Part shown: positions 22,476 through 27,583 of the stretch, in pieces
How the letters are laid out: each line of letters begins with the position of its first letter
How positions within the stretch are numbered: position 1 is the first letter of the stretch
Assembly: GCA_026706485.1 (NCBI GenBank)
Contig: JAPOYR010000002.1
Location: 124,001 to 188,000, forward strand
Origin: Chloroflexota bacterium
GTDB lineage: Bacteria > Chloroflexota > UBA11872
DNA: 64,000 bases
Direction: 5' to 3'
The notes under the pieces: model-generated
The model's database searches: none
What the model was told of the DNA's origin: nothing
Seen by the model: only the letters and a program-made list of their open reading frames with translations
Program-made: the position numbers and the translations under genes

Positions 22476-23678
22476 ATGAGCCTGCGCGTCGCCATGATCG
22501 CGCCGACGGGCTTCTTCGCGGACTACGGGTGTCACGTGCGGATCCTGGAGGAGGCCCACGCACTCCAAGCGCTGGGCCACGCCGTCACAATTTTTACCTA
22601 TCCGACCGGCACAACGCCGGACGGACTGCGCGTGGTGCGCCTGCCGGCGTTTCGCCGTCGGTCAGACGCGCACGTCGGCTCGCACCGGCGCAAGCTGCTG
22701 CTCGACCCGCTGCTGGCTGGATTGGTGCTCGCTCGCGGCCTGCGTCAACCCATTGACGTGGTGCACGGCCACCTGCACGAAGGCGCCGCGATTGGCTGGC
22801 CGCTGGCTCGCGCGCGTCGGGTGCCGCTGATCCTGGACTATCAGGGAAGCCTGACCAGCGAGATGGTCGACCATCGATTCCTCTCGCCGGACGGCCCCGG
22901 CGTACAGATATTCGGGGGAATCGAGCGCGTAATCGAGGCCGTGGCCGACTGCATCGTCACGAGTTCGGCGTTTGCCCGAGACCAGCTTGCCGCGCGTAAG
23001 TCGTGGTCGGCAGACCGAATCCTCGGCGTCCCCGACGGCGTTGACGTCGGGCGGTTTCGCCCGCGAGCGCCGGACGATGCCCCCGACCTGGCCGCGCTGC
23101 GCCGGCAACTCGGCATTCCGCCGAGCCGGCTGGTCGTCGGCTACCTGGGCCTGCTCGCGGAATACCAGGGCACCGGCGACCTCATCCGCGCCGCGCGCCT
23201 GGTCGTGGACGCCGAGCCGGGGACGCATTTCCTGATCATGGGCTACCCGAATGCCGCGGAGTACGAGCAGGCGGCCAGGCAGGCGGGCCTGGCCGAGCAC
23301 GTGACGTTCACGGGCCGGATTCCCTATGCCCAAGCCCCGGCGCACCTGCGGCTCTGCGACCTGGCCGTCGCGCCCAAGCGGTCGGAAACGGAAGGCAACG
23401 GCAAAGTGCTCAACTACATGGCCACCGGCCTGCCGACCGTGGCCTACGCGCGCGGAGTGGCCGCCGAGTTCCTGGGGCCGGGGGCCCGGCTGGCCGAGCG
23501 AGGGTCGGTGTCGGCGCTCGCCAGTGAGATCCTGCGCCTGGTGCGAGACGCCGATACGCGCCGGACCTACGGCGAGAACCTGCGGGCGCGCGCCGAGCGA
23601 GAGTTTTCCTGGCAGCGGCAGGTTGGCAGGATTCTCGACGTATACGCGTCTGTCGGCGCGGAAGCGCGGCACGACTGA
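22476..23678 (+). CDS. Glycosyltransferase family 4 (GT-B fold)
   Basis: A 400-residue GT-B glycosyltransferase. The N-terminal half starts RVAMIAPTGFFADYGCHVRI and the C-terminal half has the GT4-type GYLGLLAEYQGT and the E-x7-E-like stretch KRSETEGNGKVLNYMATG, where the nucleotide-sugar donor binds. The acceptor cannot be told from sequence; neighbours mraY-like and murF suggest a cell-envelope glycan, but this is inference. It begins at ATG 22476 with GGCGGCG upstream rather than a good ribosome-binding site. Confidence 0.8.
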   Translation: MSLRVAMIAPTGFFADYGCHVRILEEAHALQALGHAVTIFTYPTGTTPDGLRVVRLPAFRRRSDAHVGSHRRKLLLDPLLAGLVLARGLRQPIDVVHGHLHEGAAIGWPLARARRVPLILDYQGSLTSEMVDHRFLSPDGPGVQIFGGIERVIEAVADCIVTSSAFARDQLAARKSWSADRILGVPDGVDVGRFRPRAPDDAPDLAALRRQLGIPPSRLVVGYLGLLAEYQGTGDLIRAARLVVDAEPGTHFLIMGYPNAAEYEQAARQAGLAEHVTFTGRIPYAQAPAHLRLCDLAVAPKRSETEGNGKVLNYMATGLPTVAYARGVAAEFLGPGARLAERGSVSALASEILRLVRDADTRRTYGENLRARAEREFSWQRQVGRILDVYASVGAEARHD

Positions 23679-23733
23679 TTGCTACCGTAACCCTGACGCC
23701 CGCCACACGTCGGAGGGTCGCATAGAGCCTGGG

Positions 23734-25098
23734 TTGGCGATCGGCCTGGCGGCCGGCTTCGCCTTCGTCATTGCCGCGGGGGGCTCTGCCGCGCTTCGAC
23801 GTCTGTTGCCGCACTTTCGATCGGCCGAGGTCAAGCGCGGGGCGCACCAGATCGCCACACCGCTCGGCGTGTCCGGCAAGCTGCCGCTCGTGGGCGGCAT
23901 TGCCGCCGCCGTCGCGGCAGTCGTCGTCGCGGCGCTGTTGTCGGCAGGCCCGGCCGCCTCCAGCGCCTGGTGGGTACTGGTCGTCGCGGCCGGGTTCTTT
24001 CTTTTCGGGCTCGCCGACGACCTGCGCAAGACGCGCACCGGGCGCGGCGTGCCCGAGGGCGCCTATCTGGTCATCGCTCTGCTACTCAGCGTCGGCGCGA
24101 CGGCGCTCCTGGTAGGCCCCGGCGCCCACGCGTCCGGCTCGGCATCGCCCTACGCCATGGCGCACTGGCTGGGATCGGGAGCGCATGTGCCGCTGAGCGT
24201 CTGGTACCTGGCGCTAATCCTCGGAACGACGCTGGCGACCAGCTTCAGCGACGGCATGGACGGGCTCACACCGGGCACGGTGGCCATCGCGACGGCCGGC
24301 GCCGCGCTCGCGGCCGGGCTCGCCGCCGGCGTCGGCCACGCCGGTTGGCCGCTCAGCGTCGCGGCCATTGCCGCCGGGCTCCTGGTCTGGAATCTGCCTT
24401 CGGAGTGGTCGCCGGCCAACCGCGGCGCCAACCGTCGAGCCGGCATCTACATCGGCGACAGCGGCGCCCTGATGCTGGGAGCGGCCTCGGCGGCCGCCGC
24501 AATCGTGGCGGGCGTGGACCTGCTGTGGCCGCTGGTCGCGGCGCCCCTGCTGCTGGAAGGCCTCTCGTCGCTGCTGCAAGCCAAGATCCTAGTGCCGCTG
24601 TACCGACGCTGGCGTGATCCCCGGCTGCCGGACGGGACGCCGGTTCCACATCAGCAATTCCCGCTGCCGCTGCTGGCGTCGCCGCTGCATTACCACTGGG
24701 AAATCGTCGGCCTGAACCGGCAGAAGATCGTGCTGGGGTTTTGGGCCGGCACCGCCGCCACCGCGGGCCTGTGCGTCATTGCGGCCGCGATGCTCGAATC
24801 GGCGTGGGCCGCGCTGGCGATAGCCCTCGCCGTGGCGGTGGGCGCGGCGTTCTGGGGCGCCGCCACGTGGACCCGTCCGGCATTCGTCACCGCCGACGGC
24901 GACTTCTTGCTGCTGTTTCACGGCCGGCCTATCACGCTGCTTGGATGGCTGCTGGCGCGACGGCGACGCGTGGTGGGCGACGCGGATGCGGTGAGGGCGG
25001 CCGCGGACAGGGGCCTTCTTGACCAGCCCATGAACGCCCATCTGCTCAATGCGACGCTCCACGAGCTGCTGGGCGATACGAATCGACCGGCGACGTGA
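23734..25098 (+). CDS. mraY: MraY-like phospho-N-acetylmuramoyl-pentapeptide transferase
   Basis: A membrane sugar-phosphate transferase of the MraY/WecA family with about ten membrane segments. Catalytic landmarks are present: Asp-Asp in GLADDLRKTRTG, SFSDGMDGLTPGT (the NxTDGxDGLA motif with Ser for Asn), YIGDSGALMLG, and a C-terminal HYHWE matching MraY's HHH-F-E loop. With murF two genes on, lipid I synthesis is the likely role. From TTG 23734 it is 454 residues, about 100 longer than MraY, with a cytoplasmic C-terminal tail. The start is unclear: GGAGG at 23712-23716 is ideally spaced for an in-frame ATA at 23722, while TTG 23734 is 17 bases away. Confidence 0.78.
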   Translation: MAIGLAAGFAFVIAAGGSAALRRLLPHFRSAEVKRGAHQIATPLGVSGKLPLVGGIAAAVAAVVVAALLSAGPAASSAWWVLVVAAGFFLFGLADDLRKTRTGRGVPEGAYLVIALLLSVGATALLVGPGAHASGSASPYAMAHWLGSGAHVPLSVWYLALILGTTLATSFSDGMDGLTPGTVAIATAGAALAAGLAAGVGHAGWPLSVAAIAAGLLVWNLPSEWSPANRGANRRAGIYIGDSGALMLGAASAAAAIVAGVDLLWPLVAAPLLLEGLSSLLQAKILVPLYRRWRDPRLPDGTPVPHQQFPLPLLASPLHYHWEIVGLNRQKIVLGFWAGTAATAGLCVIAAAMLESAWAALAIALAVAVGAAFWGAATWTRPAFVTADGDFLLLFHGRPITLLGWLLARRRRVVGDADAVRAAADRGLLDQPMNAHLLNATLHELLGDTNRPAT

Positions 25099-26171
25099 GC
25101 ACATCAGGCGTGAACGAGGACCTGCGTTCCGGACTGCGCGCAATTCTGGCCGCTCGCGGCCAGGCCGGCCCCTGGACGTGGCGCGCCGTCGCCGCCGACG
25201 CACGGCACGAAATCTGGCGCCTTCGCGCCGGAGCCGCGTCGCTCATCGTCAAGGTCTACCGGCCGGGGGCTGACCGTTACTACCACCACCGCTGGCGGCG
25301 CGAGGAGCGGGCATTGGACCTGCTGAGCCGCCAGGCGCCGGGATTGGCGCCCGAGCCACACGGGGCTCTGCTAGCGTCCGACGCATTCGCCGCCGTGGCC
25401 ATGGAAGACCTGGGATCGGAGTCCTTGGCCCAAGTGCTCGAAAGGGCGGACTCGGACGAGCGCGCAAGCTTGCTGGCGCGCGCCGTCGAGGCGCTGGCCG
25501 CATTCCGCGACGTGGCATCGCGCCACCAGGGCATGCTGCGGGCTCTGGCCTATCAGAGCGATCTGGACCGCATCACGCGCGACACGCTGCGGCGACGCCT
25601 CGCCATCGCCGCGGTTCGGCTCCGCGATCCGCTGACCGCGCCGGAGCCCGACGCGGCGCCGCGTGCCCTAGCACCGGGGTTGCCGTGGCGAGACCTCGAG
25701 GCCGGCATCGTCAGACTGCTAGTCCGCGCGCCGCGGCGGGTGGTGCACAACGGCTTCTCGCCGCTCAACCTGATGCCGCGTCCCGACGGACGGCTGGCGG
25801 TCATCGACTGGGAAACGCTGGCGGCGGCGGCACCGGCACTGGACGCAGCCGACCTCCTCACGTTTCCGAGTTTCGGCCTCTCGGCCAACGCCATCGAGGA
25901 CGAAGCGGCCCGGCTTGCCGACGCGTCGGACGCCGCCGGTCCAATCCAGGTGTTTTGGGCCGCCGCCGCCGAGCGCAGCTTGACCTACGCCGCCACCGCC
26001 GCCGTGCGCGAGCGCCGCGCACAGGCGGCGTCGCAATCCGACCGGGCATCGACCTACGCCGCTCGACGTCGGTGGTATCTCGGCATTTTTGACGACGCCC
26101 TGGAGCGCCTGCATCTGGACGATGCCGCGCGCCGTCGCATCCGCGACGCATTGGCCGGGCACCACGGCTGA
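25095..26171 (+). CDS. Aminoglycoside-phosphotransferase-like protein with degenerate catalytic loop
   Basis: A 358-residue protein with the layout of the APH/choline-kinase fold: an N-lobe with a beta-strand Lys (LIVKVYRPG), a linker MEDLGSESL, and a C-lobe. The catalytic loop, normally H-x-D-x-x-x-x-N, reads HNGFSPLN (His218, Gly220), so the catalytic Asp is missing, but the metal-binding Asp238 in VIDWE remains. It may be a pseudokinase, a nucleotide sensor, or use another base. The GTG start overlaps the mraY-like stop and its own stop touches the murF ATG, so it is tightly embedded between two peptidoglycan genes. The substrate is unknown. Confidence 0.7.
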   Translation: MSTSGVNEDLRSGLRAILAARGQAGPWTWRAVAADARHEIWRLRAGAASLIVKVYRPGADRYYHHRWRREERALDLLSRQAPGLAPEPHGALLASDAFAAVAMEDLGSESLAQVLERADSDERASLLARAVEALAAFRDVASRHQGMLRALAYQSDLDRITRDTLRRRLAIAAVRLRDPLTAPEPDAAPRALAPGLPWRDLEAGIVRLLVRAPRRVVHNGFSPLNLMPRPDGRLAVIDWETLAAAAPALDAADLLTFPSFGLSANAIEDEAARLADASDAAGPIQVFWAAAAERSLTYAATAAVRERRAQAASQSDRASTYAARRRWYLGIFDDALERLHLDDAARRRIRDALAGHHG

Positions 26172-27583
26172 TGTTCACCCTGGCGGACGTGGCCGCCGCC
26201 GCCGAGCAGCCGGTCCCACGCGGCGCCGACGATCTCGTCATGACTGCCGCGCACTTCGACAGCCGCCGCATCCAACCGGGCATGCTGTTCGTGGCGCTCC
26301 CCGGCGCGCGCGTGGACGGCCACGACTTCATCGGCAACGCCTTCGCCCGCGGCGCCGCGGCGGTGCTGTGCGCCAGGCCCGACCCGGATCAACCCATTGA
26401 GCGTCAGGTCATTGCCGCGGAGCCGCAGACTGCATTTGAGCGCCTGGCGGGCGCGTTGCGCTCGCGCTCGTCGGCGACGTTCGTGGGCGTCACGGGCAGC
26501 AACGGCAAGACGACCACGAAGGAAGCCGTGGCCGCGGCCCTTGGCGCCGCCGGCCCCACCCTTTCCACCGACCGAAGCGAGAACGCCGAGGTGGGCGTGC
26601 CGGCCACCCTGTCGCGGTTGGCGCCCACGCACCGCTACGCGGTTGTCGAGATAGGCGCCCAGGTTGTGGGGGAGATCGCCCACTACTGCAGCTACGCGAA
26701 GCCCGATGCCGGCATCATCACCTCCATCGCCGGCGCGCACCTGGGGCTGTTCGGCTCGATGGAGGCCATTGCCACGGCCAAGGGCGAGCTCTTTGAGGCC
26801 CTCCCGGAAAACGGGCCGGCCATCGTCAACGCCGACGACCCTTGGACCGAGTCCCTTCGGCGACGCGCGCCGGGACCGGTGGTGTCGTTCGGCCGGTCGG
26901 ACGCGGCGGACGTGCGGGTGAGCGGCGAGCTTCGGACCGATCCTCCAGGCACCCGCGTGCACATCACGGCCGGGAGCTTTGCCGACAGCGTTGACGTTCC
27001 CGGCACGGCGGGCGCCATCGATCTGGCTTTCGGCGCGGCGTTGGCGGCGACCCAGGCGCTGGGGGTGGATCCCGCGACGGCCTGCCGGGGGTTGCGCGAG
27101 TTTCGGCCCGCGCCGCACCGCATGCGGCTCCAGGCGCTACCGGGCGGCGGACTGCTGCTCGACGACACCTACAACGCGAACGCCGCCTCGATGAAGGTCG
27201 CCCTGGACACGCTTCACGCGGTGTCGGTTCCGGGACGCCGGATCGCCGTGCTGGGCGATATGTTCGAGCTTGGCGGCTTTGCCGCAGCCGCCCATCAGCA
27301 GGTGGGACGGGATGCCGCCACCGTGGATCGGTTGCTCTGCGTCGGCGCGCTGGCCGCCGATATTGCTTCGGGAGCTCGCGCGGCGGGCCTGCAAGCCGTG
27401 GACCTGATTCCCGCGGATACGGAGGACTCCGCGTCGATCGCGGCGGCCGTGGACGCGGCGGCTGCGTGGCTTCGGCGAGAGCTGGCAGCCGGCGACGCGG
27501 TGCTGCTGAAAGCCAGCAACGGCATGGGCTTCGCCCGCCTGCCGGAGGCGGTAACGGAAGCCCCGCAGCTCTCCTCCGGCTGA
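26171..27583 (+). CDS. murF: UDP-N-acetylmuramoyl-tripeptide-D-alanyl-D-alanine ligase
   Basis: A 470-residue Mur ligase that adds D-Ala-D-Ala to the UDP-MurNAc tripeptide, the last soluble step of peptidoglycan precursor synthesis. The N-terminal domain has FDSRRIQPGMLFVALPG, typical of MurF; the P-loop GSNGKTTTKE spans residues 109-118 with Lys113; the C-terminal domain has DDTYNANAASM. Its ATG shares one base with the stop of the kinase-like gene (TGATG). It ends convergently with the next minus-strand gene, with a single base between stop codons. Confidence 0.95.
   Translation: MFTLADVAAAAEQPVPRGADDLVMTAAHFDSRRIQPGMLFVALPGARVDGHDFIGNAFARGAAAVLCARPDPDQPIERQVIAAEPQTAFERLAGALRSRSSATFVGVTGSNGKTTTKEAVAAALGAAGPTLSTDRSENAEVGVPATLSRLAPTHRYAVVEIGAQVVGEIAHYCSYAKPDAGIITSIAGAHLGLFGSMEAIATAKGELFEALPENGPAIVNADDPWTESLRRRAPGPVVSFGRSDAADVRVSGELRTDPPGTRVHITAGSFADSVDVPGTAGAIDLAFGAALAATQALGVDPATACRGLREFRPAPHRMRLQALPGGGLLLDDTYNANAASMKVALDTLHAVSVPGRRIAVLGDMFELGGFAAAAHQQVGRDAATVDRLLCVGALAADIASGARAAGLQAVDLIPADTEDSASIAAAVDAAAAWLRRELAAGDAVLLKASNGMGFARLPEAVTEAPQLSSG

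Follow-up and report, generated by a model that had tools for sequence, protein, structure and literature searches.

A kinase-fold protein without the catalytic aspartate, encoded next to mraY in one order of Chloroflexota, as a candidate nucleotide-binding pseudokinase

Background

What does a protein with the fold of a phosphotransferase do when it is encoded between two genes of peptidoglycan synthesis and the residue expected to drive phosphate transfer is replaced? This question is raised by a locus in the window analysed here, a stretch of 64,000 nucleotides from a Chloroflexota genome of 3.37 Mb, in which an APH-like gene (hereafter KIN) lies between mraY, whose product is an antibiotic target, and murF. 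An earlier note on this DNA had proposed a pseudokinase or atypical kinase tied to lipid I synthesis, new as a regulator or as a modifier of cell-wall precursors. We asked how far this proposal holds among the relatives of the window's genome and which explanation suits the protein best.

Results

The gene run and its cell-wall context

Four genes follow each other in close succession on the + strand:

22476..23678, + strand: GT4-type glycosyltransferase, upstream of mraY in the same gene run (Pfam PF00534, 4.3e-23)
23734..25098, + strand: mraY, divergent, with a C-terminal cytosolic extension past the membrane part (TIGR00445, 4.4e-20)
25095..26171, + strand: KIN, APH-fold pseudokinase candidate of 358 aa, GTG start (alternative start GTG 25110)
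26171..27583, + strand: murF (TIGR01143, 1.3e-102, above the cut-off)

The end of mraY (25098) and the start of KIN share bases in a GTGA overlap, and the KIN stop and the murF ATG (26171) overlap as TGATG; GTG 25110, which corresponds to the start in genome G005, is also a possible start for KIN. The earlier note took these overlaps to join KIN to both neighbours, and this stands for the window's genus, of which the exact overlaps are a trait, whereas the next genus shows gaps of ~4 bp. Since the genes overlap or sit a few bases apart, KIN and mraY are probably expressed together in both families that have a KIN gene.

The start of mraY is inferred, either as TTG 23734 or a nearby codon or as a non-standard start closer to the GGAGGG at 23712 (23728-25098 in the window). 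We call this MraY divergent because it scores below the TIGR00445 cut-off (72 vs 192 bits). Its catalytic Asp and His residues are kept in the DD, DGxDG, GDSGA and H-x-H motifs, with D97, D98, D175, D244, H321 and H323 invariant among the seven sequences compared and the H-x-H motif reading HYH in the window's genus and HHH elsewhere. No second, canonical mraY was found in the genome, where the sole other match (C10, 68 bits) likewise falls short of the cut-off. Of the seven loci fetched from the order, six have the GT4 gene in this position, and genome G023 gave no match.

Elsewhere in the genome, profiles identified a murC and murG region, beside which rsmH, a penicillin-binding protein, ftsW, ftsA and ftsZ were recognised by reading, and other contigs or stretches hold murE, a murD candidate and a MurT/GatD-like pair. 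This dcw-like cluster, together with murE, the murD candidate and the MurT/GatD-like pair, rules out a wall-less lineage. The pair consists of overlapping genes:

L080:3037-5180: MurT-type Mur ligase (Pfam Mur_ligase_M, 50.6 bits) and GatD-type amidotransferase (apart from the ligase match, assigned by reading)

Such a pair suggests stem-peptide amidation in this Chloroflexota lineage.

An APH fold without the catalytic aspartate

The Pfam family PF01636 (APH) matches KIN over residues 28-271 (9.6e-15) and, at E<=1, 19 of the 21 family members. AlphaFold models reached a mean pLDDT of 89.6 for the window protein and 90.3 for a 28%-identical member of the second family, and Foldseek searches with the two models gave best E values of 4.8e-9 and 1.3e-10 at a probability of 1.00, with TM scores by query length of at most 0.66. 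APH structures are the nearest solved relatives of both models, which points to the bilobal APH fold: the window protein is closest to 3csv (a kinase without assigned function; PMC10996006), to APH(3')-Ia with bound ATP and to LicA, and the second-family protein to ComG, LicA and NahK. ComG (PDB 8agy), the corramycin phosphotransferase, also ranks first among solved relatives in the sequence-profile comparison (1.1e-6, N-lobe). As in active kinases, the model of the window protein has K53 in beta3, E70 and E71 in helix C, and the catalytic loop ahead of the metal strand. The residues concerned are as follows:

25251..25253, + strand: Lys53 of beta3 (ATP phosphates), invariant; beta3 placement from the model
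25302..25307, + strand: Glu70-Glu71 of helix C, partner of Lys53, both invariant
25566..25571, + strand: Asp158-Arg159, in the insert ahead of the catalytic loop, invariant; local model confidence ~75
25746..25769, + strand: catalytic loop HNGFSPLN (H218-N225), with Gly in 16/21 and Ser in 5/21 relatives
25752-25754, + strand: Gly220 codon, at the catalytic Asp position of APH enzymes
25806..25814, + strand: metal-binding motif D238-W-E240 (DxE), invariant

We aligned 21 full-length KIN members, which represent six genera in two families of a single order, with identities down to 28%. Ten residues are invariant in all of them (K53, E70, E71, D158, R159, H218, N225, D238, E240 and D250), and the marks of an active APH-type phosphotransferase are therefore present as regards the beta3 Lys, the loop Asn and the metal Asp. 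The HxDxxxxN loop, in contrast, is without its Asp throughout: Gly stands in this column in 16 members, Ser in 5 and Asp in none. Thus the reading first made for the window protein, that Gly220 replaces the catalytic Asp while Asp238 and the N-lobe Lys are kept, extends to all 21 aligned members in respect of the lost Asp, and the conservation of Gly itself is partial. KIN thereby shows a mark of pseudokinases, namely a kinase fold that is under constraint but has lost a catalytic residue throughout a lineage. As a baseline, Asp was found at the same position in 34/34 other APH-family proteins of the class with a locatable loop, 21 placed by profile and 13 by a pattern leaving that residue unspecified, a set that includes several mutual orthologues and lacks some class APH proteins that could not be placed. 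Judged from these sequences, the contrast between Gly/Ser (21/21) and Asp (34/34) is beyond chance.

An alignment error, named at the outset as one way in which this reading could fail, was ruled out by the agreement of three methods. HNGFSPLN pairs with HRDVKPGN of PknA in HMMER; hhalign pairs it with HGDFRPDN, the loop of an APH paralogue encoded in the same genome, and with HGEFYASN from a relative in the phylum; and the KIN profile places Gly and Asp in the same column when set against other APH-like proteins.

Could KIN nevertheless be an active enzyme?

The same residues may be read as those of an atypical but active small-molecule kinase acting on a cell-wall sugar, a precursor or another metabolite. 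We consider such an enzyme, perhaps a weakly active one, rather unlikely; in it, another acid (e.g., the invariant Asp158, or E240 in the DxE motif) or substrate-assisted catalysis would make up for the missing Asp. The invariance of all remaining ATP and Mg residues is consistent with it, as an active enzyme would likewise keep its Mg ligands, and so is the invariance of D158-R159. These two residues lie in the insert that separates helix E from the catalytic loop, which is typical of small-molecule kinases (PMC4702295) and contributes to the putative substrate site of this kinase group (PMC2860764); they are possibly substrate-site residues or a replacement acid, although the stretch around D158 is among the less confident of the model. 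The presence of the sugar and antibiotic kinases NahK and ComG among the structural neighbours also favours activity. In ComG, both acids of the DFE motif coordinate Mg in simulations (PMC10996006), and every KIN member has a DxE metal motif as well; however, ComG is an active antibiotic kinase, whereas KIN carries Gly or Ser in place of the catalytic Asp. Neither residue offers the carboxylate of Asp or Glu, and a published account of APH enzymes calls this Asp essential (PMC3691515).

The five best-scoring relatives from outside the order, all from other Chloroflexota, carry Glu in place of Asp in a loop of the form HGE[FY]xxxN, and the catalytic position therefore tolerates change in the wider group, a further point in favour of an atypical kinase. 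These APH-like proteins are encoded as follows:

L063:940-1968
L064:1396-2247 (-)
L065:1288-2328 (-)
L066:847-1938
L067:907-1932

Note that an FkbM methyltransferase gene neighbours the L063 gene, and a glycosyltransferase-like gene and a YdjC-like gene the one in L064. Among APH-like proteins that act on the cell wall, AmgK is the MurNAc/GlcNAc 1-kinase of cell-wall recycling and is active on a peptidoglycan sugar. An AmgK-like origin of KIN would suit its genomic context; AmgK, however, is an active kinase, and KIN is without the catalytic Asp that an active sugar kinase should have.

Distribution, gene order and the link to mraY

KIN was found in 23 of the 24 genomes of the order, and searches of the class and of 400 phylum genomes gave no KIN outside the order, only generic APH matches. 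The mraY-kinase-murF order suggested by the window was upheld for its first half, since mraY is directly upstream of KIN in all 23 KIN-bearing genomes, and for its second half within the first family, where murF directly follows KIN in the 16 loci whose contig reaches far enough. In the second family (three loci inspected), the gene directly after KIN is a MurF-like/alanine-racemase fusion instead of murF, which comes only after a further, TIM-barrel gene. The fusions, present besides the separate murF, are located at:

L083:8982-11072
L084:8625-11144
L085:8678-11182

The ligase half of the L083 fusion has an apparently degenerate sequence, having lost the P-loop and scoring just 77 bits with TIGR01143.

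These data bear on a further possibility, that the job of KIN is unrelated to lipid I and that it stays beside mraY only through an old, stable block of the chromosome of the order. Taken by itself, adjacency says little in favour of a functional link because the block purH-glgA-tsaD-rimI-tsaB-tsaE-GT4-mraY-KIN-murF-folP is largely syntenic in the fetched loci. In addition, one first-family genome, G006, has no KIN in an otherwise conserved block, and KIN is also absent from the rest of its reduced assembly (2.1 Mb, 76% complete):

L093:6418-9283: G006 locus, mraY, 97 bp, murF

In both the MurF and the MraY trees, G006, whose branch is long, falls inside its family among KIN-bearing genomes, which points to a secondary loss of KIN. 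Since G006 dropped KIN and kept mraY and murF, KIN is not obligatory for either, and the tie to lipid I synthesis proposed earlier is weakened accordingly. The same is suggested by another family of the class, with a related divergent MraY and neither KIN nor murF adjacent:

L088:7148-8635 (-): mraY
L090:6749-8242: mraY

A TIM-barrel sugar-isomerase-like gene lies upstream of both. On the other side, the probable co-expression of KIN with mraY in both families argues against an unrelated job, and the mraY-KIN pair stayed intact in the second family despite the genes that separate KIN from murF. We therefore hold an unrelated job to be rather doubtful. The example of Bud32 could suggest that KIN belongs with the t6A genes (tsaB/D/E), but this was ruled out, as these genes are on the opposite strand and form a divergent group.

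Selection and other features of the window

Mean dN/dS (Nei-Gojobori, six genomes of the genus) was 0.22 for KIN, 0.15 for mraY and 0.17 for murF; the value of 0.22 indicates purifying selection and thus a constrained, working gene. With independent genomes carrying Gly or Ser and all complete KIN copies keeping open frames, there is next to no chance that Gly220 stems from faulty sequencing or assembly or that KIN is a decaying pseudogene, and both were ruled out. KIN was also rejected as a defence protein since PADLOC gave no match. No Rfam match to an RNA element was found in the window, and a consensus scan for an operon promoter gave nothing exceeding chance level.

Discussion

Our results point, tentatively and at somewhat less than even confidence, to KIN as a nucleotide-binding pseudokinase of the APH group that serves as an accessory protein of the MurF/MraY step. 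The fit to a nucleotide-binding pseudokinase comes from the loss of one catalytic residue with all needs for Mg-ATP kept, and on this sequence evidence KIN is probably catalytically crippled yet able to bind nucleotide. The operon suggests the accessory role, and we lean slightly towards an action of KIN on the MraY/MurF step. Concretely, KIN would be without the residue needed to orient and activate the acceptor hydroxyl while retaining Mg-ATP binding, and would work by binding rather than by efficient phosphate transfer. In an accessory or regulatory role at the final cytoplasmic steps by which peptidoglycan precursors are made, it could couple a nucleotide state or the binding of a precursor to MraY and/or to MurF-type ligases of the same operon, partners and ligands that we infer, as we do the binding of nucleotide and the poor catalysis. 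A narrower version, in which KIN would be a Mg-ATP-dependent, non-phosphorylating regulator or scaffold coupling MurF-type ligation to MraY and private to one Chloroflexota order, appears improbable. Several observations weigh against the preferred reading as a whole, namely the Mg ligands shared with active enzymes, the clean loss in G006, the class family with MraY and no neighbouring KIN, the largely syntenic block, and the fact that known pseudokinases of the same fold lost more motifs than the Asp alone.

The latter are the bacterial spore kinases (BSK: CotI/YtaA, CotS, YutH, YsxE), which have a choline/aminoglycoside-kinase fold and of which several classes are predicted pseudokinases after loss of the catalytic Asp, some being tied to glycosyltransferases (PMC2860764). 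KIN resembles them in its fold and in the lost Asp; in contrast, BSKs lost other motifs too and are spore-coat proteins, while KIN lost only the Asp and adjoins mraY. A pseudokinase of the cell wall is likewise known: the pseudokinase domain of MviN (MurJ) of Mycobacterium tuberculosis (ActPs3) regulates peptidoglycan synthesis, but it is of the Ser/Thr-kinase type, fused to a membrane protein, with a blocked ATP pocket, and acts via PknB and FhaA (PMC12599244). Unlike MviN, KIN is APH-type and free-standing, with its ATP/Mg residues intact. The interpretation given in the earlier note is thus upheld in part, the operon being the one sign of a link to lipid I synthesis, and because APH-group pseudokinases are already known (PMC2860764), KIN is less new than that note proposed. 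A dedicated kinase-fold partner of MraY was not found in the literature searched.

Altogether, KIN, translated with mraY, provides a test case for an APH fold turned cell-wall regulator. If the pseudokinase reading is true, the pseudokinases of the small-molecule-kinase group would extend past spore coats, and, should the narrower version hold as well, an APH-fold pseudokinase would control lipid I synthesis as an extra layer of cell-wall control in one order of Chloroflexota.
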